Assembly: GCA_014381825.1 (NCBI GenBank)
Contig: JACNKX010000191.1
Location: 1 to 64,000 of the forward strand
Source of the DNA: Planctomycetota bacterium
Lineage (GTDB): Bacteria > Planctomycetota > Planctomycetia > Pirellulales > Pirellulaceae
Reading direction: 5' to 3'
Length of the DNA stretch: 64,000 nucleotides
The notes below the pieces were generated by a model. It saw nothing but the letters and a program-made list of their open reading frames with translations. It was not told the DNA's origin and did no database searches. Below, in pieces: positions 12,163 to 56,975 of this stretch. Made by a program: the position numbers and the translations under genes. Every line of letters begins with the position of its first letter. Position 1 is the stretch's first letter.

Positions 12163-12266
12163 GTAGCCATCACTCTCCGAGTGATGAGCACGCTACGTTC
12201 GAGACCAATTTGATTGCAGTTCAAAAGGTCCTCGATGGCGCTCATCACGCGGAGAGTGATGGCTAC
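12163..12266. repeat. REP/BIME-like inverted pair 1
   Basis: Two 27-nt copies in opposite orientation (12163-12189 and 12240-12266) with a 50-bp spacer. The left copy is itself a hairpin, CATCACTC-TCC-GAGTGATG (12168-12186). The right copy has one stem mismatch (CATCACGC). The right copy ends 1 bp from the TAA stop of the DUF1501 gene (12268). Confidence 0.9.
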
Positions 12267-13659: not shown

Positions 13660-13774
13660 GTGGCCATCACTCTCCGAGTGATGAGGTCCTTCCATTTGAC
13701 TTCGGATTGAAATCGATGTGTTCTTGGTCCTAGCTGTAGTCGACGGGGCTCATCACTCGGAGAGTGATGGCTAC
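13660..13774. repeat. REP/BIME-like inverted pair 2
   Basis: Copies at 13660-13685 and 13748-13774 in opposite orientation, about 62 bp apart, each with the CATCACTC-TCC-GAGTGATG hairpin or its complement. The right copy supplies the TAG stop codon of the upstream DUF1501 gene (complement of 13771-13773). Confidence 0.9.
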
Positions 13775-15153: not shown

Positions 15154-15268
15154 GTAGCCATCACTCTCCGAGTGATGAGCCCTATACGTTGGAGTTTGAA
15201 CGGAGGCCAGCTTGTTTTGCGATTCGTGTGCTGAAACTTGCGAGGATCACTCGGAGAGTGATCGCTAC
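15154..15268. repeat. REP/BIME-like inverted pair 3
   Basis: Copies at 15154-15180 and 15245-15268, in opposite orientation, about 64 bp apart. The left copy is a perfect match to the left copy of pair 1. The right copy lacks its outer two bases and reaches the first base of the TAG stop (complement of 15268-15270) of the small gene upstream. Confidence 0.88.
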
Positions 15269-39774: not shown

Positions 39775-39830
39775 ACCTCACCCAACAGAAGGCGCACGCA
39801 CGCTGCGTGCCCTACGCAAGGAGTTACCGC

Positions 39831-41313: not shown

Positions 41314-43644
41314 ATGCGTTTACTGCCTTTGCTCACGCTCGTTGCGGTCGTTTCTCTGATTCAATCCCTTCCGGCTCAAGATAGCGCGCCCACGCCACCG
41401 GCTCGTGGTTCTCTGATCGAAGATCGAGCGGCTCGCAAATTAGTAGAAGCGGGCGACGCGCGGTTGGAAGCTGACGAATCGGCAAAGGCAGTTGAGATTT
41501 GGCAGTCCGTGATCGAGCGGTATCCAACGAGCCGCGTGCGATTTCTTGCGCATCTGCGACTCGGCGACTACTTCCTCGAACGCGACCGAGCCTTCGAGAA
41601 AGCTCGCGTGCAATTTGAAGCCATCGCCACCGAAGAGAATCGCGACGAGGAGCAACGAGCGGAAGCAACACTCAAAATGGGCGTCTGCTTTTATGAAGCG
41701 CGCAACTTCGGCAAATGCTTCCAGGTGATGCGGGACGTCATCGAGAAATTTCCGGTCAGCGAACACGTCAACCAAGCTTACTACTACATCGGACTTGGCC
41801 ACTTCCAACTGGGGCACTATAGCCGAGCGATCGCCGCCCTCGAAAAAGTTGGGACAGCACTGTCGACTGACGACGATCAGGTGCAAAAAGTTGAAGCTGG
41901 GAAACGATTATTCATCAAGATCGAAGACGCTGATCTCGCTGCATTAGAATCGGGTGAGGCGGTTAAAGTCGAATGCCAAGCCGCCAGCGGAGACAAGGAA
42001 ATCGTTGACTGCTTCCCCGTAGGACGCAATGTACGTATTGTCCTCGGCAGCATCACAACTCGGCTCGGTCGTCCGCAACCCGACAACGGCTCGCTCGAAG
42101 TTAAAGGTGACGACAAAGTATCAGTCACCTATATCGATCAGCACACCGCCGACAAGCAGTTCGACCGCAAACTGTTGCACGAAGTAACCGTTGTTGGCGA
42201 CGGCGTTGTCACGATCACCGATGGTGCGTTCAGCGAAACGCTACAGGGAGTCGTACTTGGAAAAACTGTCAACATTCAAACCAACGATCCGGATCGCGAC
42301 CTCAGCGACAATGCCGATCGACTAAGTGCGATCGTCGAAATCTATCGCGCGAAAACGGACGAAGAACTAGAAGCGGAAGCGATTGCGGCGGTCAATGAGG
42401 GAACAGGTGGCGACAGCGATACGCCTTCGGTGGATGAGGACGATTCCGAAGAAGCGGATCAATTCAAGCTCGTCGATCGCGCGCAGGTCCAGCTCGTCGA
42501 AGCCGTCGTTGAAAGCCAAGCGGCTTCTTTGGACGGTGCGACAACAATTATTGAGGCAAACGGGGGCGCGGACGCCACTCCACCCGCGGCAGAGATCGGC
42601 TCCGTCGAATCAAAAGATCCATCCATTCACAGCGGGATGTTTCGAACGACGATCCAAATCGCTCGGGCGGAAGAAGCTGTCATGGGAGACGACACACTCC
42701 AAGCCCTCCCAGGCGACATCGTTCGCGTGATTTATCAAGACGACAAGAACACGACCGACAGTGTTCGCCAAGTCCAAGTCGATGCCAAGTGCATTGAAGG
42801 AAATCTGGGCGGCGTCCGCGTAACTCGCTCGCAGATCTCTGATCGCGAACTGCGGGTCAAAACGCGACTGAAGACGGCCGACGCGCTGACGAACATCGGC
42901 AACCGCTACAAAGAATTCGGATTGAAAGACAACGCCCGAGGCAAGTACGACCAGGCCCTTGTGTTGTGTGAAGAGATCATGACGGAAGCGCGACAGCTCG
43001 GCGGGCGTCTGCTAGAAGAAACGTACGTACAGCTCTGGCAGATCTATTTCGAGATGGATCGGCTGGAACTCGCTGCTGCGATGGCTCAGCGTCTGCAGCG
43101 TGACTTCCCGAACAGCGGATTCGTAGACGATGCTCTGTTGCAACTCGCTGAAGTGGCTCGCAAACAAGGCGACTTAAACCGAGCGATCGGTGTCTACTCG
43201 CGGCTGGTCAATATGCAGACGAGTCAACTGCGTGGAGAGGCTCAGTTCGGTATCGCCGAATGCTACACCGAGATGGCGGACGCGACCGAAGGCGCACGCG
43301 CGACGCAGCTGTACGATCGAGCATTCCAGGAATATAAGAAGGTCTTCGATCAGTTCTCCGAGAGTGGGCGCGTTGGCGAAGCGGTCGCGCAAATGGCCAA
43401 TTATTACTATCGACAGCAAGACTACGCTCGCGCGGTCGACACCTTCGAGACCGTCCTATCAAACTATCCCGACGCGAAATTCCTTGATGTCATCCTGTTC
43501 AACTACGGTCGCTGCCTCTACCGCATGGATCGCAAGGCGGAAGCACGCCGTCGATTCGATCAACTGATCGGCGACTATCCTGAGAGTACGCTTGCGGGTG
43601 ACGCCAAGAAGATTTCCGAAGCTCTCGCCCGAGCGAGCGGTTGA
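41314..43644 (+). CDS. Secreted TPR protein with central beta modules (first gene of the TolQR-like operon)
   Basis: A 776-residue exported protein. The ATG at 41314 starts a signal peptide (MRLLPLLTLVAVVSLIQSLPA); the frame is open further upstream but has no better start. Its plan is TPR repeats (about 25-195: VEIWQSVIERYPTSRVRFLAHLRLGDYFLE, YYYIGLGHFQLGHYSRAIAALEKV), a beta region (about 205-520) and C-terminal TPR repeats (about 540-776: VDDALLQLAEVARKQGDLNRAIGVYSRL, VLFNYGRCLYRMDRKAEARRRF). The C-terminal TPRs resemble the CpoB/YbgF type that works with Tol-Pal. The beta region contains the same D-rich, SGxF-type modules as the giant protein downstream (NDPDRDLSDN; IHSGMFRTTI; GDIVRVIYQDD), so the two are related in architecture. 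It lies 48 bp upstream of the giant gene. Confidence 0.88.
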   Translation: MRLLPLLTLVAVVSLIQSLPAQDSAPTPPARGSLIEDRAARKLVEAGDARLEADESAKAVEIWQSVIERYPTSRVRFLAHLRLGDYFLERDRAFEKARVQFEAIATEENRDEEQRAEATLKMGVCFYEARNFGKCFQVMRDVIEKFPVSEHVNQAYYYIGLGHFQLGHYSRAIAALEKVGTALSTDDDQVQKVEAGKRLFIKIEDADLAALESGEAVKVECQAASGDKEIVDCFPVGRNVRIVLGSITTRLGRPQPDNGSLEVKGDDKVSVTYIDQHTADKQFDRKLLHEVTVVGDGVVTITDGAFSETLQGVVLGKTVNIQTNDPDRDLSDNADRLSAIVEIYRAKTDEELEAEAIAAVNEGTGGDSDTPSVDEDDSEEADQFKLVDRAQVQLVEAVVESQAASLDGATTIIEANGGADATPPAAEIGSVESKDPSIHSGMFRTTIQIARAEEAVMGDDTLQALPGDIVRVIYQDDKNTTDSVRQVQVDAKCIEGNLGGVRVTRSQISDRELRVKTRLKTADALTNIGNRYKEFGLKDNARGKYDQALVLCEEIMTEARQLGGRLLEETYVQLWQIYFEMDRLELAAAMAQRLQRDFPNSGFVDDALLQLAEVARKQGDLNRAIGVYSRLVNMQTSQLRGEAQFGIAECYTEMADATEGARATQLYDRAFQEYKKVFDQFSESGRVGEAVAQMANYYYRQQDYARAVDTFETVLSNYPDAKFLDVILFNYGRCLYRMDRKAEARRRFDQLIGDYPESTLAGDAKKISEALARASG

Positions 43645-43692
43645 TGAGTGTGTACGTCCTACCATTCTGCTTTCTTTAAGAGCACAAAACAC

Positions 43693-46600
43693 ATGTTGCG
43701 TTCGACAATTGCTTCCTGTTTGTTGCTGTTTTGCGCTGTGACTCAGGTTGCTGTGACTCAGGTTGCTGCACAGGATCAACCAACAGCCGAGACTTCAATC
43801 GATACTGTCTCGCAAGCGGCAACGGCGCTCGAGGCAGAGCTTGGAAAGTATAAGGACAACGCACCGGAAGCCGGCGAAGCGTTATTCAAACTGACTGACT
43901 TGTATTACGAAAACGGTCGGGTCTTTGGATTGGTGCGATCGGCTCAGCGATTTGTCGCTGCGCATCCGACCGACCCCCGACATGCGGCCATGATGTTGAA
44001 GCTGCTCGATGGGCTCGAAGCACTTTCTCGCAACAAAGAGTTCGCTGTTATCGCACGGCAGTTCCTCACTCGTTATCCGACCACGCCCGACTGCCCGAAG
44101 GTTGAAGAGCGGCTCGCCTCGATTCTTGAAAAAGTGGGCAAACGTGAAGATGCCGCGAAAGTCTACCAAGCTCGTTGGCGGCGCGAGCCCAATCCGAACG
44201 GTCGTCGCTTTGCGGAAAAGGCATGCTTGCTCTTCGCGCAGGTTGGCACTCCGGGTATCGCCCAGCAGGCCGAACTCGCAGAAGAGATGTTCGACCGACT
44301 GCCAAAGGACCAATATGCAAAGTTCGTAGGGCAGCGCTCTTACTACGAGTGGCGTCGGATTAGCAAATGGGCCGAGGCGAATGCGATCGGCAATAAGCTT
44401 GTTGCTTCGAATCTGCTTACGGTTCCGGAGGAGAAACGAGAAGTATTGCGGACGATGGCCGAGAACTACGGCTACGTCGGCCAACATTCCAACGCCGTCG
44501 AAATGCTCAAGCAAGTCCGAGCGATCCGCGACGATCAATGGTCACACTACTATCACATTCAACGGTTGTACGACTCGGCGGCCCCGGCGGCTCAGATGGA
44601 ACCGATCGTCAAGGACTACTTTGCAAAGTATCCGGATCGCGAAGATCGTTACGAGCGGATCGCACTCCTGGCTGTTGCCTGGAATCGCGAGCAAAATCCC
44701 GAACGCGCTAAGACGATGTTCCGCACTTTGTTGCCCACCGCGCCTCAAGCCCAGAGCGTTGCCTCTTACTTCGTTCAGCTGAACGGCAATGAACCCGAGC
44801 AATTGGCCGACACGGAGAAGGCGCTCCGTGAAGCAATCGCCAAAAACCCGAAGAATGTGTGGTTCCTGCGATACCAGCTGGGCTTTTCGCTCTGTCGCGA
44901 TCGCATGAAGGACAACGCCAAGGCCAAGCAAGTTCTTCGAGAGTTGCTCGCCCAATCTCCGACCAACGATGGCAATATTTGGAACGTCATCTCGTGGTTG
45001 CTATCTAACCCAGAGAGCGAAGCCGAATTTCGAGCGGACGTAGCTCGGATCATCAAGGTGCGTCGCGAATACATTCATTGGAAAAATTTGCGCCAGTACT
45101 TGGGCAACTGGGAGAAGACCGCGAGGCGCAATAAAGACCTCCGCGATCGGGCGGACTTCGTTAAAGCAGAGTTAGACAAGGCAGACCGAGATCCGATCGC
45201 TGCGTTGGTCCAACAAATTGCACGTGGTCCTTACGATGCGAAGGACGCCCGCATCCGCGACCAACTGCTTCGTCCAGAGAACTTCAACAAGCTGAACAAA
45301 GAGCTACAACGCTACGTGCTTTGGGACCACGGATACTACTATCAGCACTACGCACCTGGTGATCAGCGTTCAAACGCGGCGACCCACTACGCCAAACTCG
45401 TACAAATGTTTCCCGAGAACTTCGAGTATCGGTATCGGTACTTGCAAGTCGCCAGCGATTATGGACAGCCCGAAGTCGCCAAAGAGGCAGCGTTGTCGAT
45501 GATGTCCGTCGCGGCCCCAGCCAACAACAGCGATGTGTGGCGGCGTCTTGGAATCGCGGCAGACAAGATGAAAGATGCCGGTCTCGCGCGCCAGACGCTC
45601 GCGTATGCAAAGAACTCACAACAAAAGCATGGTCCCGAATTTGGCAACATGACGGGGCTTGGAGACGTCTTTGGGCGACTTGAACTCGCCGACGAGGCGA
45701 CCGCACTCTGGAAGGAAGTTGCGGAGCAAAAGCAGAATCTCTACGAAGCTCGTGAATCGTCGTGGCGACTTTTCCAAAAGCTCGAAGATCCACAACAGAA
45801 GATCGCTTTTGCCACAAGTCGTTTCGCGCAAGACACCGACTATCACGGTCGCTACGCGATGTGGTTGGCTGACACGCAGTTGCGAGTCGGTGATCTCAAT
45901 GCCTTCGAGAAAACGCTGAAGGACACGCTGACTCGTGCGCGAAATCGTCCGTTCCAGGGCTGGGACATTGATGCGTGGAGCTTGCACTACATGCTGAATA
46001 ACTTCCGAACCAGTCACGCAGACTATCGACTCGACAAAGAGAAGGAAAACACTCCCGAGAACATCTTGCGAGTCGCACGAGCGGTTCGTGATATGGAATT
46101 TGATTGGCCATCGGCACAAGCCGATTTGGTACTCCTGGAGAGTGAAGCGGCGGATGCTCGCAGTTCGATGGATCGTGCGCTTGCCTGGCAACGAGTCGCC
46201 CGTCCGTTGCCTCCCGATTCCCATCGCTGGGATCAACTGATGCCATTCGCGCAGGGTGCCGTCACGCGTCAAGAGTACAGTATCGCCGCCACTTTGCTGA
46301 CGAGCATGCTCGAAAACTTGACATCTGCGAACGACCAACGCAAAACGCAGGGTCGTGCGATGATCGGCCAGTGCTACACACGCCTTGGCACGGTCGGCTT
46401 GACGATCGACGAAAACAGTCCGATCGCGCCGCTGTTGCAAGCCGCGTTGTATTTGCGACTCGGCGACGAATCGCTCGCGCTGGAAGCATTTCTGGCGAAC
46501 AAAGCGCTCTTCGACCAACATCGAGACGAAGTTCCTGTCGACTTGCTGGTGTTTGTCTGCGAAAACTTGATGGCGGCGAGCGGTGAAGAGAATCACAACA

Positions 46601-49600
46601 AGGTCGAAGACACGCTACGGTCTTGGCTGATCAAGAACAGCGAAGCCGCAACGGTCGACGATACGCTCAAGGCAGAGATCCAGTATCTCCTAGCAAAGAA
46701 CTTCTTCGGCGCAAAGCGGTACGACGTCGCTCGCAGCGAGTACACAACGGTCATCAATCGCTATCCCAGCACCCCTTTCGCCACCGAGGCAGAGTTTGGA
46801 ATCGGCGAAACGTTCATGGCTCAAAAGGTCTACGATCAAGCGGAGATCGTCTTCGAGAAACTTGCCAACAATCGCGACCCCGAGATCATCATCCGCGCAG
46901 AGTTTCTTCGCGGTGTTCTCGCGCATCGACGCGGCGACAATGATGAAGCTCGCGACATTTTCCGCAACGTGCTAGAGCGTGTTCCGAATATCGAGCTCGC
47001 CAATCAAGCACTCTTCAACTTGGCCGAAGTCTATAGCGACGAAGAACGTTACATGGACCAGTTGCAGCTGCTGATGACGGTTGGACGACTCGGTCGCGTC
47101 AGTAAGCGACAGCACGCTCCGGGAATGGCCCTTTCCATTGTCGTTCAGGACAGCGACCTCGGAATCAGTCGCGGACACAACCGTATCCCTGTCATCGTAC
47201 GCACCGAACCCGGTGGTGATGAAGAGGTGATCTATTTGACGAGTGGCGGTGCCGGGAAAGGCGTGTTTCGAGCTGACGTCGATACGGAGCTAGGAGCAGT
47301 TGCCAAGTTGGACAAGGTGCTACAGCTGACGGGCCAAGACACGATTCGTTGCGACTATCCCGAACAATTCAAATCTGAATTCAAGACCGTCCCGCTTTCT
47401 GATGTCGAGATTCGAATTGCATCCGACGCACAGTTCGAGGTCGCGAGCAGCCGAATCATCGACGAAGAGGAAGAATCTTTTAGCGAACGTTTGGAGCGTG
47501 AAGCACGCCAACGTCAACAAGCCGACTCACGGCAATCGACGAGACGACCAACCAATCAGATAAAGCCTGGAAATCCGATTTACCTGCGAGTCAAGGACGG
47601 CGATCGAGATCTCGGCGACGCGCCAGACATAATCGTGGCGAAGTTAGTCGCTGATAGCGGCGATCAAGTTCAGGTCAAGTTAACGGAAACAGAACCACAC
47701 TCGGGTGTCTTCGAAGGAGTCGCCAAGTCGGGCGAACTACCCGCTGGCGCTCTCGCCAGCGACACCGCGATCGATCACAACCCGCTCATGGCGATCGACC
47801 AAGATCCGGAAACCTATTGGCAGAGCGAACCGGACGGGGCAACTCCCAAAACGCTGACCGTCGACATGAAGGATTTACGCTCGATCTCACGGGCCAAGTT
47901 CTTCGTGCCTCAGTCGGACGACAACAAGCCCATTCGCGCTGAACTTCGGGCGAGCTACGACGGCGAGTTCTGGTATCGCGTCGCCGCCCACCCAGCAATT
48001 CCAGACGCTGCGCCGATTGCCGGTGACTATGGAGCCATGACGTATCAGCTGTTCTCGGGCAATGCGACCAGCTACACGACGTGGGCGCAGGTTTTGAATC
48101 TGGCGAACGGCGAGCCAATCGAAGAAGGGCCCGTCGCGGAAGGGCAACTCGTTTGGAATCGACCGGAGAACGACGACGAGCAACCTCGATACGTCTCGAT
48201 GCTCTGGTACGGCAAGATTGCTCAACCACGAGCCGGCGCGGTCCGTTTCCAAGTTCGCGGTTATCGAACCGGTTTAGCGTTGAATGGCCGGCTCGAAATG
48301 AATCTCGCGCAAGGCAATCAGTCGGTCGATGTCTGGCTTGAGAAAGGTGTTCACGACCTGACGATTTTTGCAGCGGCTCATCCGAACACTCAAGAACTTT
48401 CGGCGATGCGCGCACGTGCAAGTTTGAACGAACAGCGAGTAACAATGAGTCCGTTTTTGACGAGTGATTTCGATTTGGATTCCGTCGCAGGATGGAGTTC
48501 TACACCGGCGGCCAGCGCCGAAGACCATGAAAAGGACGGAGTAGAACTCCGTACTACGCCAGGCACGATCACGCTGACCGCCGACACTGCTCACTTCGAT
48601 AAGAAGTCCGAGAACTTTGGTATTCAAGAGCAAGGCGAGAACAAACAGATCGCAAGTTGGCAGGCAGTCGAAGATGTCGCGAATTGGGAGTTCGACGCTC
48701 CGATCGGTGTTTACGATGTGTGGCTGAATTACTCGCATCAAGGCGGTGGTTCTATCATCCGCGTTGAACTTGGCGACCAGTATTTCAGCTCGAATTTGCC
48801 AAACACAGGCAATTGGAACACCTATCGCAACGATCGCTTCGGAACGCTCACGGTGGATGAACCGGGCAAAGTGCGGTTGGCAATTCGCCCTGAAGAGATC
48901 CAACGAGGGTATGCGATGGGGCTGCGCGGCGTCGAGTTGCGACCTGCAATCGGTTCACGAGTTGTATTATCGGATAATGCCTGGGAGTATCGATTCGACC
49001 CGATCGACGTACGTTATACGCGTTTTGTGATCAACGAGTACCTCGGCGAAGCCGTGGCCGTAAATCATGTTGAGATTTCCGGTGAGGACCGCGCGAATCC
49101 ATTCATTCCCACCGAAGCCGACGTCTTGGCGCTGTCCGAGAATGACGTATTGGAAATCGCAGGCGGCGATCTCGTCACGGCAAGTTACACCGACGAAGTG
49201 ACGCAAGCAAACGCAGGCGGCAGTCGGTTGCTGACCGATCGACTACAAGCGACTTACTTTGACGCGGCGATTGCGCCAATCTCGTACGACTTCGAGCGTG
49301 ATCGAAACGGCTCGGTACAAACGGTTCGTAAGCTGTTGAAGCGAGTCGAGCCAGGCGAACGGCTTGTTGTCGAAATTGTTGATTACGATCGCGATCAGAC
49401 TGCGGCGCCCGATCAAGTCCAGTTCGAAGTGACCGTCAATGACGGCGAACCGGTGAAATTTGCGGCAACGGAAACGGAAGAGTATTCAGGTATCTTCACG
49501 AAAGAAGTTGATACAACCGCCGAAGTAGAAGAAGACAAGCTGACCGTCCGCCGCGGAGATCGTGTTTACGTGCGATACATCGACGAGCAAAACACATTCC

Positions 49601-51426
49601 CCGGTCATTCGGTGCCGCGCGAGAGTGTCGTTTACGTGAACGAACCAACCGACGCTCGAATTCGTATTTTGGAGACTCGTGTTATTCCGCCGCCAGAAGG
49701 TCGCGAAGGTCCACCCCGAATCACGTATCACGAACCTGATCCTGAGGCTCAAGTCAGTAGCGTTGCCTTCGAAGCTCCGCTGACCGTCGAAGTGATCGAC
49801 CCCGACGCAGCGCGCGACAGCCTTAGTGAAATCACAGTCACCGTCACCACTTCCGACGGCGCGACGGCTGATGTCCGTTGCGTTGTGTCGGGCGCAATGT
49901 CGCAAGTTCCAAGACAAACGGCTGATGAATGGGCTTTGGAGGAAGGAAGGTTTATTGGACAAGTCATCTTGCAACTCGGCAGCAGCACGAGTGCCGATGT
50001 TGTCCCGATCACATCCGAGATGCCGCGAAATCTGATCGGTGGCGGGCGACTGGATGAAGACGAAGAATCTTCACTGAGTGATAACCTTGTGGCTCGCGTG
50101 CTGAACTTATCCGGTAAGGATCAAATCACATCGACCTATCACGACGAGTTCCGAGCGGACGAGAAACCGATCGATGTTCCAGCTCGCGGGAGATTGATCT
50201 CGAATGGATTGCTTGCTTGCACGGATCGCGACTACGACAAACTCGCATCGCAGTTGCACGTTGGCGAAAAGCTCTTCCTCATGGTGACCGATCCGGATCA
50301 AGACACCTCGGACGATCGCGATGTGACGGATGTCGAAATCGCAACGGAATTTGGCGAAAAGGAAACCGTTCAACTCTTCGAAACGCTCGTTCACAGCGGC
50401 ATCTTCACCGGGTCGCTTACACTTCGATCGAACGAGCAGCCAACGCCCGGCAACTTGCAACCGAGTGATCCGCTCATCGAATGCTACTTCGGCGACACAG
50501 TTCGGGTGAAATACTTCGATTCCGCAGCCAGTACCGAGAGCGGCAATCTTGAATTGGCTCAAGAGATCCCGGTCGTGATTGGAACCGACGGGCTGGTTTC
50601 CGGGTTCAGCAAGACCTTCAACGACGAAAAACTGGCCGTCGAGACCAAGTTCCACATCGCGGAGAGCTACTTCGAGCTGTTCAAGAGTCATCGCGAGTTG
50701 AAGCGCAGCGCCGAAGAAAAAATTGACTTGGCAGCAGGTCGCCGAATTCTTCAGGAAGTCATGGAAGACTATCCCGATCCGAAGTACGTGCCACGAATCG
50801 CTTACCTACTCGGACAGTTCTCGCAAGAGTTGGAAAGCTGGACCGAAGCGATCGAGTCCTACGAAATGATCGTGCGTCAGTATCCTGATCATCCGCTGGC
50901 CGCTGACGCGCAGTACAAGTTGGCACAAAGCCACGAGGAAGCCGGTGATTTCGACGAAGCTCTCGAAGCTTATGTCACGCTCGCCGCGACATACCCCAAA
51001 AGTCCGCTGATCGCGAGCGTGATGATTCGCATTAGCGACCACTTCTACAAAGCGGAAGAGTATATGATCGCGGCACAGGTCGGCGAGAAGTTTCTAGATC
51101 GATTCGATGGTCATCAGCATGCCGCGCGAATTGCCTTTCGGATCGGCCAGTGTGCCTACAAAGCCGAGACGTTCCAAGACGCGGGAAGTTCCTTTGATCG
51201 CTTCATGAAACTGTTCCCGGAAGACGAGCTGTCGCCCGACGCGCTCTTCTGGTCGGGCGAAAGCTTCCGCATGGCGAACAACAATCGCGAAGCCTTCCGC
51301 CGCTACAACCGATGTCGATGGGACTTCCCCGAAAGCGAAGCGGCCCGATATGCGCGCGGCCGACTGGCGCTACCCGAGATGCTTCAGCAATTCGAGGCCG
51401 AAGCACGATCCGTCGAAGACCAATAA
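43693..51426 (+). CDS. Giant (2577-residue) secreted TPR / beta-module / carbohydrate-binding-like protein
   Basis: The ATG at 43693 gives a signal peptide (MLRSTIASCLLLFCAVTQVA). Residues about 30-1130 are TPR-type helical repeats. The central part contains at least five beta modules with a DxDxD-like start, an ETxxxSGxF motif and a GDxVxVxYxD end (bases about 47140-47360, 47569-47745, 49358-49590, 49778-50160, 50263-50530). Between modules 2 and 3 lie a discoidin-like segment (NPLMAIDQDPETYWQSE, about 47770-47990), a PA14-like segment (about 48130-48430) and a CBM6/35-like segment (GVYDVWLNYSHQGGGSIIRVELG, about 48560-48960). The C terminus (about 2310-2577) returns to CpoB/YbgF-like TPRs (EAIESYEMIVRQYPDHPLAADAQYKLAQ). 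It probably spans or decorates the cell envelope and binds glycans, driven by or anchored to the downstream ExbB/ExbD-type proteins. No catalytic site is seen. Confidence 0.9.
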   Translation: MLRSTIASCLLLFCAVTQVAVTQVAAQDQPTAETSIDTVSQAATALEAELGKYKDNAPEAGEALFKLTDLYYENGRVFGLVRSAQRFVAAHPTDPRHAAMMLKLLDGLEALSRNKEFAVIARQFLTRYPTTPDCPKVEERLASILEKVGKREDAAKVYQARWRREPNPNGRRFAEKACLLFAQVGTPGIAQQAELAEEMFDRLPKDQYAKFVGQRSYYEWRRISKWAEANAIGNKLVASNLLTVPEEKREVLRTMAENYGYVGQHSNAVEMLKQVRAIRDDQWSHYYHIQRLYDSAAPAAQMEPIVKDYFAKYPDREDRYERIALLAVAWNREQNPERAKTMFRTLLPTAPQAQSVASYFVQLNGNEPEQLADTEKALREAIAKNPKNVWFLRYQLGFSLCRDRMKDNAKAKQVLRELLAQSPTNDGNIWNVISWLLSNPESEAEFRADVARIIKVRREYIHWKNLRQYLGNWEKTARRNKDLRDRADFVKAELDKADRDPIAALVQQIARGPYDAKDARIRDQLLRPENFNKLNKELQRYVLWDHGYYYQHYAPGDQRSNAATHYAKLVQMFPENFEYRYRYLQVASDYGQPEVAKEAALSMMSVAAPANNSDVWRRLGIAADKMKDAGLARQTLAYAKNSQQKHGPEFGNMTGLGDVFGRLELADEATALWKEVAEQKQNLYEARESSWRLFQKLEDPQQKIAFATSRFAQDTDYHGRYAMWLADTQLRVGDLNAFEKTLKDTLTRARNRPFQGWDIDAWSLHYMLNNFRTSHADYRLDKEKENTPENILRVARAVRDMEFDWPSAQADLVLLESEAADARSSMDRALAWQRVARPLPPDSHRWDQLMPFAQGAVTRQEYSIAATLLTSMLENLTSANDQRKTQGRAMIGQCYTRLGTVGLTIDENSPIAPLLQAALYLRLGDESLALEAFLANKALFDQHRDEVPVDLLVFVCENLMAASGEENHNKVEDTLRSWLIKNSEAATVDDTLKAEIQYLLAKNFFGAKRYDVARSEYTTVINRYPSTPFATEAEFGIGETFMAQKVYDQAEIVFEKLANNRDPEIIIRAEFLRGVLAHRRGDNDEARDIFRNVLERVPNIELANQALFNLAEVYSDEERYMDQLQLLMTVGRLGRVSKRQHAPGMALSIVVQDSDLGISRGHNRIPVIVRTEPGGDEEVIYLTSGGAGKGVFRADVDTELGAVAKLDKVLQLTGQDTIRCDYPEQFKSEFKTVPLSDVEIRIASDAQFEVASSRIIDEEEESFSERLEREARQRQQADSRQSTRRPTNQIKPGNPIYLRVKDGDRDLGDAPDIIVAKLVADSGDQVQVKLTETEPHSGVFEGVAKSGELPAGALASDTAIDHNPLMAIDQDPETYWQSEPDGATPKTLTVDMKDLRSISRAKFFVPQSDDNKPIRAELRASYDGEFWYRVAAHPAIPDAAPIAGDYGAMTYQLFSGNATSYTTWAQVLNLANGEPIEEGPVAEGQLVWNRPENDDEQPRYVSMLWYGKIAQPRAGAVRFQVRGYRTGLALNGRLEMNLAQGNQSVDVWLEKGVHDLTIFAAAHPNTQELSAMRARASLNEQRVTMSPFLTSDFDLDSVAGWSSTPAASAEDHEKDGVELRTTPGTITLTADTAHFDKKSENFGIQEQGENKQIASWQAVEDVANWEFDAPIGVYDVWLNYSHQGGGSIIRVELGDQYFSSNLPNTGNWNTYRNDRFGTLTVDEPGKVRLAIRPEEIQRGYAMGLRGVELRPAIGSRVVLSDNAWEYRFDPIDVRYTRFVINEYLGEAVAVNHVEISGEDRANPFIPTEADVLALSENDVLEIAGGDLVTASYTDEVTQANAGGSRLLTDRLQATYFDAAIAPISYDFERDRNGSVQTVRKLLKRVEPGERLVVEIVDYDRDQTAAPDQVQFEVTVNDGEPVKFAATETEEYSGIFTKEVDTTAEVEEDKLTVRRGDRVYVRYIDEQNTFPGHSVPRESVVYVNEPTDARIRILETRVIPPPEGREGPPRITYHEPDPEAQVSSVAFEAPLTVEVIDPDAARDSLSEITVTVTTSDGATADVRCVVSGAMSQVPRQTADEWALEEGRFIGQVILQLGSSTSADVVPITSEMPRNLIGGGRLDEDEESSLSDNLVARVLNLSGKDQITSTYHDEFRADEKPIDVPARGRLISNGLLACTDRDYDKLASQLHVGEKLFLMVTDPDQDTSDDRDVTDVEIATEFGEKETVQLFETLVHSGIFTGSLTLRSNEQPTPGNLQPSDPLIECYFGDTVRVKYFDSAASTESGNLELAQEIPVVIGTDGLVSGFSKTFNDEKLAVETKFHIAESYFELFKSHRELKRSAEEKIDLAAGRRILQEVMEDYPDPKYVPRIAYLLGQFSQELESWTEAIESYEMIVRQYPDHPLAADAQYKLAQSHEEAGDFDEALEAYVTLAATYPKSPLIASVMIRISDHFYKAEEYMIAAQVGEKFLDRFDGHQHAARIAFRIGQCAYKAETFQDAGSSFDRFMKLFPEDELSPDALFWSGESFRMANNNREAFRRYNRCRWDFPESEAARYARGRLALPEMLQQFEAEARSVEDQ

Positions 51427-51471
51427 CGCCCCGCCTCGCTCGGGCTCAACCTTGAACCGACCACTCTGATT

Positions 51472-52383
51472 ATGAACACGCTCCTTCTGCTGACATTGAT
51501 GCTCCCCGCGCAGACCGCTGCCGAAGAAGGCGGTGCCGAATCACCTCCAACCGAGGCTGTCACATCCGAAGTTGAAGTCGGAACCACCGACACGACGGAC
51601 GCTGGAGCATCAGAAACCACAGAGACGCCGACGCCCACCGTAGCGGACGCAGACGACGATGGCTCGTCAATCGGCGGCACCTTGAATGACATTCTCAGTT
51701 CGGGGGCAATCGGATTACTTCGCCAAGGCGGTTGGTTTATGTGGCCGATTCTCATTATGGGGATCGTCGCCGCCGGAGTAATCATCGAGCGATATCGGAG
51801 CTTGAAGATGCTCTCCTCGGACAGCGAAGACTTGCGGCGGCAAGTTCATGCGTTGCTTGACAAGGATCGCGTCGAAGAAGCGTTGCGACTTTGCGATCAG
51901 GAGCAGGGCCCCGTGCCAGCGATTCTGTCATCGGGGCTGCGAAAATTCCTGGTCTTGAGGCGACTCAACCACGATCCCGGAAGGATTGAGGAGCAGGTCG
52001 TTAAAGCAATGGACGATTACAGCGTACACGTCGTGGCTGCATTGGAGCGGCATTTGTCTGTGCTGGCGACCGTCTCCAGTGTCGCGCCGATGCTCGGTTT
52101 TCTTGGAACCGTCTCCGGCATGATCAACTCGTTCCAAGACATCGTCGCAAAGATGGGCGAAATGAACATCGTCGAAGCGGCGGCTGGCGGTATCAGCGAA
52201 GCCTTGCTGACGACGTGCTTTGGGTTGATCATCGGAATTCCAGCCTTCATGGCGTTTAACTACTTTACGAGCGTTATCAATAGCTTCGTATTGGACGTCG
52301 AAGAGTCCGCCACGGAATTGATCGAAGGCGTTACATTGCAGATGGCTCTTGAACAACAAGCGGAAGCCACGAGCGGTGGCTAA
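51472..52383 (+). CDS. MotA/TolQ/ExbB-type proton channel subunit
   Basis: A 303-residue inner-membrane protein. A signal-like first helix (NTLLLLTLMLPAQTAA) is followed by a Thr/Glu-rich periplasmic stretch (about 18-70), then the conserved core: helix GGWFMWPILIMGIVAAGVIIERY, the cytoplasmic helical domain (EALRLCDQEQGPVPAILSSGL), and the channel helices LSVLATVSSVAPMLGFLGTVSGMINSF and GISEALLTTCFGLIIGIPAFMAFNYF. The GTVxGM and ALLTT motifs with their threonines are family hallmarks for the proton path. It should form a pentameric channel around an ExbD/TolR dimer encoded immediately downstream. The additional N-terminal helix and acidic region are common in planctomycete and myxobacterial members. 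Confidence 0.95.
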   Translation: MNTLLLLTLMLPAQTAAEEGGAESPPTEAVTSEVEVGTTDTTDAGASETTETPTPTVADADDDGSSIGGTLNDILSSGAIGLLRQGGWFMWPILIMGIVAAGVIIERYRSLKMLSSDSEDLRRQVHALLDKDRVEEALRLCDQEQGPVPAILSSGLRKFLVLRRLNHDPGRIEEQVVKAMDDYSVHVVAALERHLSVLATVSSVAPMLGFLGTVSGMINSFQDIVAKMGEMNIVEAAAGGISEALLTTCFGLIIGIPAFMAFNYFTSVINSFVLDVEESATELIEGVTLQMALEQQAEATSGG

Positions 52384-52388
52384 CGGTA

Positions 52389-52817
52389 ATGCGAGTTGCA
52401 CGAACAACGAAACTGATGGTCGAGCCGCCGTCCAGCGCGACGGGCGATATCGCGTTCAATTTGATCGTATTCTTTCTTGTTTGTGCTTCCGTTCAACCAG
52501 ATGCCGGCCGACGCCAATCGATTCCAAGTAGTGAGACCGTGGATGAAGAATCGAAGCAGACGGAAAACATCGAGGTGTCCCTGACGCGAACGGCGGTATT
52601 GGTTAACGGGGATGTGATTCCGACGAACCGACTGCTGTCTCGCCTGAAGACGCTACTTTCCGGAAAGGCGCAGCCTGAGGAGAAAGTTGTTGTCGTGAAA
52701 AGCGAACCCGATACGCCGTACAGCCATTGGATATTTGTTACTTCGATCGTCGAAGATGCCGGCGGTATTGTGACGTTGCAGTTGGAAGAAGAACGCGAGA
52801 TACAAGTTCCAGGTTAG
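52389..52817 (+). CDS. ExbD/TolR-type subunit 1
   Basis: A 142-residue inner-membrane protein, 5 bp after the ExbB-type gene. A short cytoplasmic N terminus precedes one helix, GDIAFNLIVFFLVCASVQP, where D20 matches the proton-accepting aspartate of ExbD/TolR. The periplasmic domain (about 45-142) has the ExbD fold (IEVSLTRTAVLVNGDVIPTNRLLSRLKTLLS and EKVVVVKSEPDTPYSHWIFVTSIVEDAGG). Together with the ExbB-type protein it should convert proton flow into movement. An asparagine four residues after the aspartate, inside the helix, is shared with the second copy. Confidence 0.93.
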   Translation: MRVARTTKLMVEPPSSATGDIAFNLIVFFLVCASVQPDAGRRQSIPSSETVDEESKQTENIEVSLTRTAVLVNGDVIPTNRLLSRLKTLLSGKAQPEEKVVVVKSEPDTPYSHWIFVTSIVEDAGGIVTLQLEEEREIQVPG

Positions 52818-52839
52818 CGGGCTGTGCGAATACTCAACA

Positions 52840-52893
52840 GTAGCCGTCACGCTCCGAGTGACAAGCGCTCATCACTCGGAGAGTGATGGCCAC
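52840..52893. repeat. REP/BIME-like inverted pair 4, no spacer, inside the operon
   Basis: Two 27-nt copies back to back in opposite orientation (52840-52866 and 52867-52893), between the two ExbD-type genes. The left copy reads GTCACGC-TCC-GAGTGAC, where an A-to-G change on one side of the stem is matched by a T-to-C change on the other side, keeping the pair. The right copy matches the consensus. Confidence 0.88.
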
Positions 52894-52907
52894 AACAACG
52901 ACAAACC

Positions 52908-53312
52908 ATGAAAATCACACGGCGAAAATCTCGAGCAGAAGTACCCAGCATGGCGATGGGCGACATCGCCTTCAACCTGCTGATCTTCTTCGTGATTCTT
53001 GCTCGGGCACAAGACGACAGCCATTTGCAGTGGACGCCGGCGAAGGCCGACAATCTTGAAAACGCGGGCCACACGATGGTCAGCGTTTTGATCGACTCGG
53101 ACAGCAAGCTCTATCTCAATGGACAACAGATCGGCGTTGCACAACTCGCAGGTCAAATTGAAACCGCCTTGGGCGATGCCCCTCAAGGCGAGCGATCTGT
53201 CCTCGTCAAAGTTCATAACGACACACTCGCTCAACGGTTTGAACCAGTCATCGAAGCAATCAGTGAAGCAGGCGGCGACTTAATTCACATCGTCGAAGAG
53301 CAGCGGGACTAA
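52908..53312 (+). CDS. ExbD/TolR-type subunit 2
   Basis: A 134-residue protein of the same kind as the previous one, but clearly diverged in sequence. Its helix is MAMGDIAFNLLIFFVILARAQ with D19 as the predicted proton-binding aspartate. The periplasmic part (HTMVSVLIDSDSKLYLNGQQIGVAQLAGQIETAL; RSVLVKVHNDTLAQRFEPVIEAISEAGGDLIHI) has the ExbD fold. The two could form a heterodimer inside the ExbB-type ring, as in the Agl system with its two TolR-like proteins. A REP-like pair separates it from subunit 1 by 90 bp. Confidence 0.94.
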   Translation: MKITRRKSRAEVPSMAMGDIAFNLLIFFVILARAQDDSHLQWTPAKADNLENAGHTMVSVLIDSDSKLYLNGQQIGVAQLAGQIETALGDAPQGERSVLVKVHNDTLAQRFEPVIEAISEAGGDLIHIVEEQRD

Positions 53313-53341
53313 CCGACTCGACCGTGCCAAGGAAGTATGAA

Positions 53342-53830
53342 ATGGACAGCACCAAAGAACATCTCGAACAGCAACAGACTCGACCTGGCGGAATCGCGGG
53401 TGATCTCCAACGCGTAAAGACTGAAGGTGGCGCAGCAGCCGCCGAACTACGCGAGTTTCTCAGTCGTCTGAAAGGCCGAAGCCCACAGGAAGTGATGGGG
53501 ATCGCGGCTGAAAGCAATCTGTTTCGAAGCGTCCTCACCGCGACTGCAGGCTGTGTTGTACTGTTGGTTATTTTGACGGTTGTTCCCTACGCGATTAAGG
53601 GCGCGCCCGCGAGCGTCAGCAAGAAACCGAAAACAGCTGCGGCAGCACAATCAACGAACGAGAAACAGCCCGTTCCTGCGGCGACCGAGGATCAAACTAC
53701 GGCCGCCACCAGCGAGCCGGATCTCGAACGCGCGGCGGAAGCGATGGGAATCGGCGGCGCGGCAGAGGCCGATCCCAACTCGAATCCGCTCGACAGTAAG
53801 CTCGATAATCTTCTTGACGGAGTTGAATAG
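53342..53830 (+). CDS. Single-helix membrane protein, family not recognised
   Basis: A 162-residue protein. The ATG at 53342 has AAGGAAG 6 nt upstream and is preferred to the GTG at 53324. It has a hydrophilic N-terminal part of about 65 residues (LEQQQTRPGGIAGDLQRVKTEGG), one transmembrane helix (TATAGCVVLLVILTVVPYAI) and an Ala/Glu-rich tail of about 80 residues (KPKTAAAAQSTNEKQPVP; NPLDSKLDNLLDGVE). By position it should be the link between the ExbB/ExbD motor and the outer components, a role played by TonB or TolA elsewhere, but there is no sequence evidence beyond the membrane topology. It is followed 11 bp later by the DUF4159 gene. Confidence 0.75.
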   Translation: MDSTKEHLEQQQTRPGGIAGDLQRVKTEGGAAAAELREFLSRLKGRSPQEVMGIAAESNLFRSVLTATAGCVVLLVILTVVPYAIKGAPASVSKKPKTAAAAQSTNEKQPVPAATEDQTTAATSEPDLERAAEAMGIGGAAEADPNSNPLDSKLDNLLDGVE

Positions 53831-53841
53831 CTGATCGACTG

Positions 53842-55350
53842 ATGGAAGCAGCAAACAACCGGGCACTGCAGATTTCACGACGCGCCGCACAATTAATTTG
53901 TGCCTATGCAGTGATCTGGCTGCTCTGCTTGGCGAATTGGATGTGGATTCAGTTCGAGGCATCGGTCGTAAGCTGGCTACAAGCGATCGTCTTCGTCGCC
54001 TCTCTGCCGATTTCTATCAGTTGGATTCGCTGGGCGACACGTCCGAGTCAACGTCAAACGCAACTGGTGTGTTTCGTGCTGACGGTGGCATACGTTTTAC
54101 TGTGGCATTTGGGCGTTTTCAGCTTCGACGCGGTTGAGTGGGACGTTCCACGAACTCATCTCGCTCGCGTCGGTACGGCCGGATTGTTCTTTGTCGGACT
54201 CGCGTGGTCGATCTGGGCAGTCGAGCGCGCCTCACAAGTGCACGAATCCCGAAGGCGATCCGGGCAGTCTGAACTGCCAATTGTTCGGGCAACGCCGGCG
54301 ACTTCAAGAGCTGGCGACGTCCAGAGCGATCAACGAATCAATAATCCGTTCGATCCATCGGCATGGTACTACGGCCGGCGCAACGCGAAACTAAATCAAT
54401 CAGTCACGGCGTTGTCAGGGTATTCGGTCGCGTTCCTTATCCTGTTTTTGATCTTCACACAAATGGGTGGCTGCCAAGAGCTGTACGAAATGCCAGCAGG
54501 TGGCGGTCAACAACAAACAATCGCCCAAACGCTCAAAGTTCAAAAAGTGATCAAGAAGAAGTTCGTCGTGAATCCGTTCAGCGCGATCAGCTTTAAAGTG
54601 CCTCCGATCGACGAAGTCAAACTGCAACTGACCGAGATCACCGAACATGCTTATACGGTAGGTTACGGTGAAGGGGCTGGAGCTGGCTTCGCTGGAGGAA
54701 CGCCGAAGGGGCAAGTTCGCTTCATACGGCTGGAGTATGCCGGAGGCGACTGGGATCAGGACTTTGGTATCGGTGCCGATGTAAACATGCTGATCGAGTA
54801 CGGTATCCGAACTAAACAAAAGGTCGCCAAGCAAACCGAATCACGAACCGTCGGCCAATTGAAGAATTTTCTGCCAGAGAAGAGCCCGCCGATGGTCTAT
54901 CTCACAGGGCAACGCAACATCTCGATCTCCGATAGCGAGGTGAAGGTACTCCGCGAGTACGTCATTGATAAGCACGGGATGATCTTTGGGGACAACGGCG
55001 GCAGCGGCCACTTTCACAACCAGTTCGTTGGCTTGATGCGTCGGGTGTTGCCAAACGTGCGACCCAGCAAAATCCCGCTCGATGATTCAATCCACCGCAT
55101 ACCGTTTCAGATCCCCTTCCTGCCGTACGTCGCTCCTCACGGCGGTAAGGATGCGCTCGGATGGCGAGTCGACGGGCGGTTGGTTTGCTATTACCATCCA
55201 GGTGACATCGGCGACGCCTGGACCGACGATCATTCCGGCGTATCGCCGGAAATTTACGAAGCGTGTTATCAACTCGGAACAAATGTTATCTTCTACGCCC
55301 ATTCGGAATACAGTAAATGGCTGGCCTCGCGACAACAGAAAGCAAAGTGA
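53842..55350 (+). CDS. Membrane-anchored DUF4159 protein
   Basis: A 502-residue protein. The N-terminal third holds about five transmembrane helices (LICAYAVIWLLCLANWMWIQF, AIVFVASLPISISWIRWA, LVCFVLTVAYVLLWHLGVF, GTAGLFFVGLAWSIWAV, VTALSGYSVAFLILFLIF). The C-terminal domain is DUF4159, with the typical PPMVYLTGQRNISISDSEVKVLREYV, GMIFGDNGGSGHFHNQFVGLMRRVLP, and GRLVCYYHPGDIGDAWTDD. DUF4159 resembles a glutamine amidotransferase-like sandwich; its activity is not known. It is found near TolQR-like genes in other bacteria, consistent with a shared envelope complex. It ends 5 bp before the next gene. Confidence 0.9.
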   Translation: MEAANNRALQISRRAAQLICAYAVIWLLCLANWMWIQFEASVVSWLQAIVFVASLPISISWIRWATRPSQRQTQLVCFVLTVAYVLLWHLGVFSFDAVEWDVPRTHLARVGTAGLFFVGLAWSIWAVERASQVHESRRRSGQSELPIVRATPATSRAGDVQSDQRINNPFDPSAWYYGRRNAKLNQSVTALSGYSVAFLILFLIFTQMGGCQELYEMPAGGGQQQTIAQTLKVQKVIKKKFVVNPFSAISFKVPPIDEVKLQLTEITEHAYTVGYGEGAGAGFAGGTPKGQVRFIRLEYAGGDWDQDFGIGADVNMLIEYGIRTKQKVAKQTESRTVGQLKNFLPEKSPPMVYLTGQRNISISDSEVKVLREYVIDKHGMIFGDNGGSGHFHNQFVGLMRRVLPNVRPSKIPLDDSIHRIPFQIPFLPYVAPHGGKDALGWRVDGRLVCYYHPGDIGDAWTDDHSGVSPEIYEACYQLGTNVIFYAHSEYSKWLASRQQKAK

Positions 55351-55355
55351 GACAG

Positions 55356-56975
55356 ATGAAGTCAATCTCAGCGAATCTCGTCGTGGCATTCTTGGCATGC
55401 ATCGTTCTTACGAGGTCTGCGTATGCCGAACCGCTCGACCAATTGCCTCTTGAGCGTTGGAAGGAGCTGCGCGAGGTCGAGCGATATCAGCTGAACATCG
55501 CCGAGAAATACTATCGCGAGAAGAACTTCAAAGTCGCGTTGTCCGAGTACGAGAAATTCCTGACGCTCTACGAGCAAAGCGACGGTGCGGCTTACTCGCA
55601 GTTGAAGTGGAGCCTCTGCCTGATAGAACTGCGGCGACAAAACACTGCAATCAAGGAAGGGTTCCAGTCGATTCTTGACTATTGGCCGGATGCACCGGAA
55701 GCGGTTGCAGCGGGTTACTATATCGGGCGAGCCTACAAAGACATCGGTGAAGTTCGCAAAGCCAAGAAGGCTTACCAGGAGGTTCTTGAAAATCATCCGA
55801 AACATCTTGTGGCGGTTTATGCGACGGTTGATTTGATCGATATCGCATCGATTGATGATGATGTTGACGATCGAGTCAAATTGTGGCGTCGGCTTGCCTT
55901 CGATTTCGAGCGAACGCGCGAGTCGAAGAACCATTGCGTAGCCGCATCGCAGCAACTCGCGGCCTATCTGTTCGAGAACGGTTCCTTCGAAGAGGCCGTT
56001 AAGGCGTTGGCAACCACCTATCCAGAAGACCAGTTGGTCGCCCAAGTCGCCAGTTTCAGTCGCGGCCCAATATCACGCTTGACAGGCAATGATGAAACGC
56101 GATCGAAAGGCGAACAGATCGCCGATAAAGGCGTTGCCTGGATTCGTCAGCGAATCCCAACGGATCGTTCGACGGATGAAGCGAAACAAGCGGCGCTCCA
56201 GCACTGGTATGCGATGGCCGATCTCCACGCTGCCTCACGACGAGAGGATAAAGTTGCGGGAACGTACGAGCAACTCTCGAAGAGCTTCGGCACGAACGAC
56301 ACAACGCTACAGCGACTGGGTGACTGGTACAAATCGATCACGAAATATGATCAGGCACGCGCTCAGTATGCGAAATTCGGGAACAAGATCGAAGCTCAGA
56401 ATCAAATCGCCTACAGCTATCGGCAACAGCAGAATTACGATGCTGCGGTCCAAGCGTACCAGCGCAACGTCGCGTCTGATCCCGAGAATCAGGCGCGGTG
56501 GAGTAGTGAGGTTGGTAATGCTTATCGTGAGGCCCGAAAGTATGATCAGGCGATCGCTGTCTACAACGAGCTGTTAAAGACCGACGGTGAGAATGCAGAG
56601 AAATGGCTGTGGCTGATCGCGACGAGCTATCGCGACGCGGGGAAGCACAAAGAAGCGATCGGTTACTACCGCCAATGCAACAACTTTCCGAGCAACTACT
56701 CGGAAATGGCAGCTTGTCATCGAGCGATGAAGGACTTTGGAGAAGCCGTGATTCTGTATAACCAAGTGGTCGGCGGCGCTCCGAATTCAGCCCCCTGGGC
56801 GATGCTCCAGATTGGCTATACGCAGGAGCAAGCAGGAAAAAAGGAAGCCGCAATCAGGGCCTTTCAACAAGTCTGCAAGAATTTCCCAAAGGATCGTTAC
56901 GCCAGCCAGGCACATGCGCATCTCCAGACCAAGTATAAGATTACGGTCACCCTGGGCGGTGCCAAAGACGAGTGA
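55356..56975 (+). CDS. Secreted TPR protein (last gene of the operon)
   Basis: A 539-residue exported protein. The ATG at 55356, 5 bp after the preceding stop, begins a signal peptide (ANLVVAFLACIVLTRSAYA); the open frame upstream overlaps the DUF4159 gene. The mature protein is made of TPR repeats with the usual pattern (YYREKNFKVALSEYEKFLTLYEQSDGAAYSQL, AVAAGYYIGRAYKDIGEVRKAKKAYQEVLENHP, YDAAVQAYQRNVASDPENQ, YDQAIAVYNELLKTDGENAEKWLWLIATSYRDAGKHKEAIGYY). It is likely a periplasmic scaffold, like the CpoB/YbgF-type proteins of Tol-Pal. It completes the eight-gene unit that starts at 41314. Confidence 0.9.
   Translation: MKSISANLVVAFLACIVLTRSAYAEPLDQLPLERWKELREVERYQLNIAEKYYREKNFKVALSEYEKFLTLYEQSDGAAYSQLKWSLCLIELRRQNTAIKEGFQSILDYWPDAPEAVAAGYYIGRAYKDIGEVRKAKKAYQEVLENHPKHLVAVYATVDLIDIASIDDDVDDRVKLWRRLAFDFERTRESKNHCVAASQQLAAYLFENGSFEEAVKALATTYPEDQLVAQVASFSRGPISRLTGNDETRSKGEQIADKGVAWIRQRIPTDRSTDEAKQAALQHWYAMADLHAASRREDKVAGTYEQLSKSFGTNDTTLQRLGDWYKSITKYDQARAQYAKFGNKIEAQNQIAYSYRQQQNYDAAVQAYQRNVASDPENQARWSSEVGNAYREARKYDQAIAVYNELLKTDGENAEKWLWLIATSYRDAGKHKEAIGYYRQCNNFPSNYSEMAACHRAMKDFGEAVILYNQVVGGAPNSAPWAMLQIGYTQEQAGKKEAAIRAFQQVCKNFPKDRYASQAHAHLQTKYKITVTLGGAKDE

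Follow-up and report, generated by a model that had tools for sequence, protein, structure and literature searches.

Motors of the ExbB/ExbD class are described by a rotation model in which an ExbB pentamer holds a pair of ExbD subunits within its pore and protons drive the rotation. The available part of PMC12204202 characterizes a TonB/TolA-like transducer by a transmembrane (TM) helix with the SHLS motif and its His, a disordered linker and a C-terminal domain, and describes loci of Planctomycetes-Verrucomicrobia-Chlamydiae (PVC) bacteria in which a tetratricopeptide repeat (TPR) gene, tolQ and two tolR genes are followed by the gene of a TM-linker-vWA protein proposed to be driven by the proton motive force. 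The window analyzed here, a stretch of 64,000 nucleotides from a Planctomycetota bacterium of the family Pirellulaceae (contig JACNKX010000191.1), harbors at 41314-56975 a block of eight closely packed open reading frames (ORFs), A to H, all on the plus strand. They code for two TPR proteins (A and H), a giant TPR protein (B), an ExbB/TolQ-type protein (C), two ExbD/TolR-type proteins (D and E), a one-TM protein (F) and a membrane protein with a DUF4159 domain (G). An earlier note, made from the DNA letters, had described eight co-directional, closely spaced genes that tie such a motor to TPR proteins; all the ORFs were present, Pfam backed each family named, and the tie was supported by Pfam as well as by the conserved neighborhood. 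It is highly probable that the eight genes form a machine unit with a proton-driven motor. The best reading, held with about even confidence, is a proton-driven envelope machine in which two transducer-type subunits act on glycan-binding TPR proteins.

The gene set is conserved far beyond chance, as seen from the same order in relatives and from joint presence. Among 60 genomes (own included), a long match to the giant was found in 10, and short matches, many to TPR parts, in others listed. A profile search for the DUF4159 protein gave at least 390 bits in the same 10 genomes and a 50-bit match to the DUF4159 domain in one further genome; the giant and the DUF4159 protein were both absent from 50 of the 60. 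The probability of this joint presence is 1.3e-11 on the assumption of independent genomes, which these genomes are not. Of the nine giant-bearing relatives, five possess all of A to H in this order, three show the same arrangement up to the contig ends (H being short in one), and in the ninth, G002 of the same genus, the block is interrupted between D and E. The ordered set A to H was also found in G323 and G277 from other parts of the phylum. A scan of public records, with one genome per species, gave 127 stretches and 101 relatives of the DUF4159 protein, and the best 80 of the 101 yielded 78 loci. Their record labels include Planctomycetota, Verrucomicrobiota and Kiritimatiellia among others, given as deposited, although some look wrong (e.g., Kuenenia and Akkermansia on lake metagenome-assembled genomes). 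Genes B to G lie in order in 52 of the 78 loci, 39 of these being followed by H, and the other 26 loci are cut by contig ends, broken or reordered. At loci with sufficient flanks, B was found beside G in 53/62, C in 56/66, D in 63/69, E in 66/71, F in 66/72 and H in 51/67. Within the family of one verrucomicrobial genome (that of L142), the DUF4159 protein occurs in 18 of 79 genomes, six of which have two or more matches, and within the family of another (that of L155) in 1 of 13. The claim that the block is conserved as a unit stood, as a lack of joint conservation of the motor and TPR genes was looked for and not found. The description as a planctomycete machine fits in part: the block does occur in planctomycetes, but records labeled Verrucomicrobiota and Kiritimatiellia carry it too, and its distribution is patchy.

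Gene C matched the MotA/TolQ/ExbB family (PF01618, E 2.1e-27, 95.8 bits, cut-off 22.9), and genes D and E matched the ExbD/TolR family (PF02472, E 3.4e-13 and 7.4e-14, 50.2 and 52.3 bits, cut-off 25.4). The residues characteristic of the family, the pore Asp in both ExbD proteins and Thr in ExbB, were found to be present; Asp20 of ExbD1 and T213, T247 and T248 of ExbB were invariant in alignments of 10 sequences, and Asp19 of ExbD2 in an alignment of 8. An ExbB tree of 38 rows, including 8 of the 11 MotA_ExbB proteins of the window genome (9.7 Mb, 238 contigs), placed the window type in a single clade (support 100/100) adjoined by the proteins of L081 and L084 (96/84). Eight other MotA_ExbB proteins of the window genome fell outside this clade. 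The deeper joins are unsure because of long branches and weak deep support. The score of gene C was below the NCBIfam equivalog cut-offs of both exbB of the Ton system (79.6 bits, cut-off 206.2) and tolQ of the Tol-Pal system (117.9 bits, cut-off 221). The Zorya defense system (ZorAB) was rejected as an identity, with zero PADLOC matches for C, D, E and G at E 0.01; the same scan gave one 14.8-bit match of F to PD-T4-6.

Deviations from the full arrangement were of more than one kind. When the giant was searched for again in 10 of the 11 loci that lack B or C beside G (L164 and L165 set aside, L168 not included), its profile was present in 10/10 genomes whose block had looked broken, and in L101 it was located at the same locus, further downstream. 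Seven broken loci, L091, L097, L100, L101, L129, L135 and L153, retained D-E-F-G-H (four), E-F-G-H, F-G-H or G-H (one each). The DUF4159 protein of the distant loci has diverged, its match starting at about residue 180. ExbB, two ExbD and the DUF4159 protein were found together in 8 of the 10 loci L081-L090, L086 and L090 being cut. The giant lies upstream, cut at the edge of the stretch (1,880 to 2,284 amino acids), in L082, L085, L087, L088 and L089; no giant was found in the 5 to 6 kb present upstream in the distant L083 and L084, and L081 is too short to tell. Two genomes, G449 and G451, hold both the core and the distant type. L164 and L165 show a different gene order and no F, with one ExbD in L164, and their ExbB groups near the other ExbB proteins of the window genome.

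The earlier note had stated that TonB, TolA, TolB and Pal are missing. This holds for the eight proteins of the block, but the genome has two TonB_C proteins on other contigs, which carry none of the 11 MotA_ExbB matches; one of the two adjoins a TonB-dependent receptor, as judged by eye. The other, on contig C218 (L170), shows neither an ExbB nor a receptor gene in its 3.2-kb surroundings. The Pfam scan at E 0.01 detected no TonB_C among the eight block proteins and no TonB-dependent receptor there either. TolB_N was found in 0/60 genomes, own included, in a search whose control gave a signal in 3/14; the classical Tol-Pal system is therefore missing in this order. With TonB_C only on other contigs and TolB_N in none of the 60 genomes, the block does not qualify as a classical Ton or Tol locus.

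The present analysis newly finds that F and G occupy the position expected for a TonB/TolA-type transducer. F comprises a conserved stretch of the ELREFLxxLKGRSPQEV type, a TM helix, a variable linker and a conserved C-terminal peptide of the NPLDxxxDDLL type; the peptide follows the strict pattern in 30 of 37 core sequences and is present as variants in the remaining 7. At the distant loci, F has a TM helix with His, followed by a linker that is charged or rich in proline and by a short, acidic C-terminus. The alignment of F drew on the window, on 36 core loci out of 65 listed and on 7 distant loci (a clean F frame was missing in L082 and L085, and L086 is truncated), and its TM column holds His in 7/7 distant and 0/37 core homologues, the window F having Cys. 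In L197 (3347-8436), a distant-type block is followed by genes for a small membrane protein and for a PDZ/DUF6288/HEAT protein; the latter has the C-terminus FDDLDLDL, reminiscent of the tail of F.

G matched DUF4159 (PF13709, E 8.2e-30, 104.3 bits, cut-off 25.9). Its AlphaFold2 model (mean predicted local distance difference test score, pLDDT, 84.1) shows five long helices ahead of the domain, giving a layout of five predicted TM helices, a KVQKVIKKKFVVNP segment, a Gly-rich linker and the C-terminal DUF4159 domain. The modeled domain compares with 4i66 (Hoch_4089) at Z 23.2 over 186 residues, and its next structural matches are class I glutamine-amidotransferase-like folds at Z about 9; the domain as modeled is glutamine-amidotransferase-like in fold. 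By the positive-inside rule, the domain is predicted to be periplasmic because the loops TM2-3 and TM4-5 are positively charged. In an alignment of the window, 48 of the 66 listed loci and 10 distant proteins, SxxxH was present in the fifth TM helix of G in 9/10 distant, 2/2 L164-type, 0/2 L167-type and 0/45 core sequences. Neither F nor G of the window carries the His of the SHLS type in a TM helix. Since the distant homologues keep the TM His, F and G look like relatives of transducers that lost the motif in the window clade. Judged from these sequences, the missing TonB/TolA is probably represented by F and G, and a transducer role of F or G is regarded as rather likely.

The Pfam TPR models match A, B and H, and short A-B matches in a sequence search of related genomes showed A to be partly paralogous to B. 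The giant is 2,592 amino acids long from GTG 43648 and 2,577 from ATG 43693, and its most conserved blocks are residues 901-1400 and 2301-2578 (numbering from 43690). A model of residues 1335-1775 (mean pLDDT 82.3) contains the fold of carbohydrate-binding module (CBM) families CBM6/CBM35 at residues 1625-1752, comparable to 2cdp_D (Z 17.5, root-mean-square deviation 1.7, 123 aligned residues). Foldseek matched the segment, match range not given, to the PA14 carbohydrate-binding domain 6x8d (E 1.5e-5), and the discoidin family F5_F8_type_C matched at E 2.2e-5 with 25.0 bits, under the Pfam cut-off of 28.2. The CBM module is carried by 25 of 50 other giants, and a GH29 fucosidase of another genome ends in a stretch 36% identical to it. 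Owing to the CBM6/35 fold, the PA14-like parts and the discoidin match, glycan binding by the giant is likely by fold. The claim of a glycan-binding outer component is hence half borne out: a part of sugar-binding type is present in the giant, but an outer location is not indicated, A, B and H having plain signal peptides at the N-terminus as judged by eye, with outer-membrane anchors not searched for.

The features are collected in the table below. The gaps between the genes are 3 or 48 bp for A-B, depending on the choice of start codon, 45 for B-C, 5 for C-D, 90 for D-E, 29 for E-F (F from ATG 53342), 11 for F-G and 5 or an overlap for G-H; the next gene downstream of H is rpsB. A hydropathy scan showed one N-terminal hydrophobic stretch each in A, B and H and one TM helix each in D, E and F. 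Promoter-like sites (5, against 6.8 in shuffled sequences) and terminator-like sites (21 against 19.3) in the window did not exceed chance, so the operon structure is based on spacing and conservation only. Rfam gave zero matches within the window at the gathering score.

Table. Features of the eight-gene block and its upstream neighbors in the window.
Feature	Position	Strand	Basis or remark
DUF1549/DUF1553 protein and DUF1501 protein, upstream pair	37612..41084	+	DUF1501 beside A in 8/9 relatives
Gene A, secreted TPR protein, 776 amino acids	41314..43644	+	TPR at both termini; signal peptide judged by eye
Gene B, giant secreted protein, about 2,580 amino acids	43648..51426	+	TPR at both ends, beta-rich middle
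Gene B, discoidin-type (weak) and PA14-like region, about residues 1335-1620	47692..48549	+	limits read from model
Gene B, CBM6/CBM35-fold module, residues 1625-1752	48562..48945	+	structure comparison
Gene C, ExbB/TolQ-type motor subunit, acidic N-terminal extension	51472..52383	+	PF01618
Gene D, ExbD1, one TM	52389..52817	+	PF02472
Inverted repeat, 10 bp, perfect, in the D-E gap	52852..52881	.	repeat search against shuffles
Gene E, ExbD2, one TM	52908..53312	+	PF02472
Gene F, one-TM protein, transducer-like	53342..53830	+	alignments, residue counts; no Pfam match
Gene G, five TM helices (model) and C-terminal DUF4159 domain	53842..55350	+	PF13709, model
Gene H, secreted TPR protein, C-terminal VTLGGAKDE	55356..56975	+	Pfam TPR models; relatives

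The conserved neighborhood is larger than first stated, as a DUF1501 gene is located directly upstream of A in 8/9 giant-bearing relatives; its DUF1549 partner falls within the compared stretch in only 2/9. The DUF1501/DUF1549 neighborhood is also present in L080 and is not beside A in L079, and in L101 and L102 the DUF1549/DUF1501 pair and gene A come after gene H. The inverted repeat between D and E was observed once, against a mean of 0.00 across 100 shuffles. The block of the same-genus relative is split between D and E (L047, L091), i.e., where the repeat sits, and a link between the two is only suggestive. The 10-bp half of the palindrome, TCACTCGGAG, recurs as inverted pairs resembling repetitive extragenic palindromic elements (52852-52881, 13672-13762, 15166-15256 and 12175-12254), and allowing at most one mismatch it has 12 matches where 5.5 are expected.

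The mechanism proposed for the block begins with the motor, where family knowledge and the conserved residues provide good grounds: the ExbB pentamer with its ExbD1/ExbD2 pore pair would pass protons via the invariant Asp and rotate. Homology and position suggest, on fair grounds, that two transducer-type inner-membrane proteins ride on this motor, namely F, a helix whose flexible linker terminates in the conserved acidic-leucine peptide, and G, a membrane protein whose linker would bear the periplasmic DUF4159 domain. Hypothetically, the tail of F and the DUF4159 domain could attach to A, B and H, the secreted TPR proteins, in which case the motor strokes would pull on or remodel the giant. 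B might in turn grip a glycan via its CBM6/35, PA14-like and discoidin-like modules so that each stroke moves the polysaccharide, the most plausible purpose being to help its uptake into, or its handling in, the periplasm. The handling of glycan by the block is considered slightly less than an even prospect, and polysaccharide uptake in particular a tentative possibility on the unlikely side.

Several observations weigh against this mechanism. F and G of the window clade have no His; they therefore lack the classical contact with ExbB, and coupling either works in another way or does not occur. In the seven broken loci ExbB and ExbD are not adjacent, the whereabouts of ExbB there not having been searched; H is missing downstream in 16/67 loci, and half of the giants do not carry the CBM module. 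The all-Pfam scan of the eight proteins found no outer-membrane channel, and with no such channel in the block and rpsB next to it, the block does not visibly lie in a polysaccharide-utilization locus. It is also patchy, being found in 10/60 related genomes, with the DUF4159 protein in 17/392 genomes of a phylum sample by either profile, and hence is not a general planctomycete uptake apparatus or route.

The block could instead be a structural machine that tethers or constricts the envelope in the manner of Tol-Pal, the modules of B holding the cell's own wall or surface glycan, a view that draws on the biology of CpoB and BamD. The TPR parts of A and B do pass the cut-off of the NCBIfam model tol_pal_ybgF (113.1 and 158.8 bits, cut-off 90.1) and B passes that of BamD (83.6 bits, cut-off 81.4), although these are general TPR matches and the CpoB model reached at best 72.8 bits against a cut-off of 383. 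TolB_N is missing from all 60 genomes and rpsB adjoins the block, as would suit such a role; yet 50 of the 60 genomes have neither TolB_N nor the block, so that Tol-Pal is not generally replaced and a general replacement was rejected, and no TolB, Pal or OmpA-type domain was detected by the all-Pfam scan of the eight proteins. A structural role is therefore judged unlikely. Surface movement or attachment of a gliding-like kind, with the giant as the adhesin, is highly improbable. Adhesins can contain discoidin, PA14 and CBM modules, and motors of this class power gliding machines, but the GltE model scored B at 27.1 bits against a cut-off of 225, no further gliding model was among the matches listed, and the Pfam scan of the eight proteins showed no domain for pili or surface export; the Agl-Glt gliding machine is thus not represented by its Glt proteins. 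The earlier note had proposed outer membrane invagination as well as surface movement, and nothing in the analysis spoke for either.

Two co-inherited functions may also be envisaged, in which the motor C-E serves other transducers, such as the two TonB proteins of the genome, while the TPR and DUF4159 proteins form a separate complex. The location of both TonB_C proteins on contigs without a MotA_ExbB match is compatible with this, as are the fragmentation of the block in several genomes and the separation of ExbB from D-E in the seven loci examined. In those same seven loci, however, both ExbD stay with F-G-H in four and ExbD2 does so in a fifth, with neither in two; the ExbB proteins form a clade of their own (100/100), and a genome has either both the giant and the DUF4159 protein or neither. 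Separate functions are accordingly considered improbable, and the reading of one proton-driven machine acting on glycan-binding TPR proteins is preferred.

The passage of large polysaccharides across the planctomycete outer membrane is an open question in the field, to judge from the available parts of two articles. Dextran was taken up by 23% of 1,065 Gemmata cells and by 0 of 816 with carbonyl cyanide m-chlorophenyl hydrazone (CCCP), entering the periplasm by a route described as unknown (PMC5394234), and the uptake of chondroitin sulfate by planctomycetes has been termed "analogous but unknown" (PMC5520146). A conserved block that combines a motor with a giant partner, probably one that binds glycan, offers a concrete candidate part of such uptake in the species that have the block. 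If true, TonB, TolA and the vWA proteins would be joined by a further transducer type, and DUF4159 would gain a setting and a set of partners. That the block represents a new machine class, with one motor, two unlike transducers (a docking-tail helix and a DUF4159 protein) and a glycan-binding giant, as one energy source for planctomycete and verrucomicrobial polysaccharide uptake, is rather doubtful. No published description of the block was found, as judged by titles and the starts of abstracts; the available parts of PMC13274419 and PMC12505986 contain none, and a literature search on DUF4159 returned no mention.

Among the known systems, the vWA loci, as far as the available text describes them, share with the block the occurrence in PVC bacteria, a TPR gene, a TolQ-like protein, two unlike TolR-like proteins and a protein of TM-linker-domain layout; they differ in having a vWA domain and SHLS in the helix where the block has DUF4159 and a helix without the motif (PMC12204202). 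F has no Pfam match and G is a DUF4159 protein by Pfam and by fold. Identity with the vWA loci, as represented in the part of that publication at hand, was set aside as G is DUF4159 and a separate vWA-like locus is present in the same genome. That locus (L195; contig C238, 3304-7274) has, adjoining TPR, ExbB and two ExbD genes, a vWA-like gene whose product carries SVALH in the TM helix; its VWA_2 match (E 1.1e-3, 20 bits) is under the cut-off of 27, and it may fit the type described in the available part of the publication.

The Ton system resembles the block in its ExbB and ExbD families and in the TM-linker layout with His seen in the distant homologues of F and G, but the block has no TonB_C or TonB-dependent receptor and its ExbB scores under the exbB cut-off. 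Tol-Pal likewise combines a TolQ/TolR-class motor with a TPR partner, whereas the block has a giant partner and DUF4159, TolB_N occurs in 0/60 genomes, and the tolQ score is under the cut-off. A mucin-utilization locus of Akkermansia with TolQ/ExbD and TPR proteins is reportedly needed for mucin import. Three loci of the same genome, on contigs C227, C236 and C66 (L046, L192 and L193), also have a TPR gene, ExbB and ExbD; they differ in their single ExbD, in the lack of DUF4159 and of a giant within the stretches seen, and in an ExbB outside the window clade. These loci also code for a protein with a squalene-cyclase-like C-terminal part (37.2 bits on C66; 24.7 on C227 and 21.3 on C236, both under the cut-off of 26.1), possibly a further transducer type. 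Finally, 4i66 (Hoch_4089) of the DUF4159 family has the same domain fold, to which the block adds five TM helices, a linker and motor genes as neighbors.

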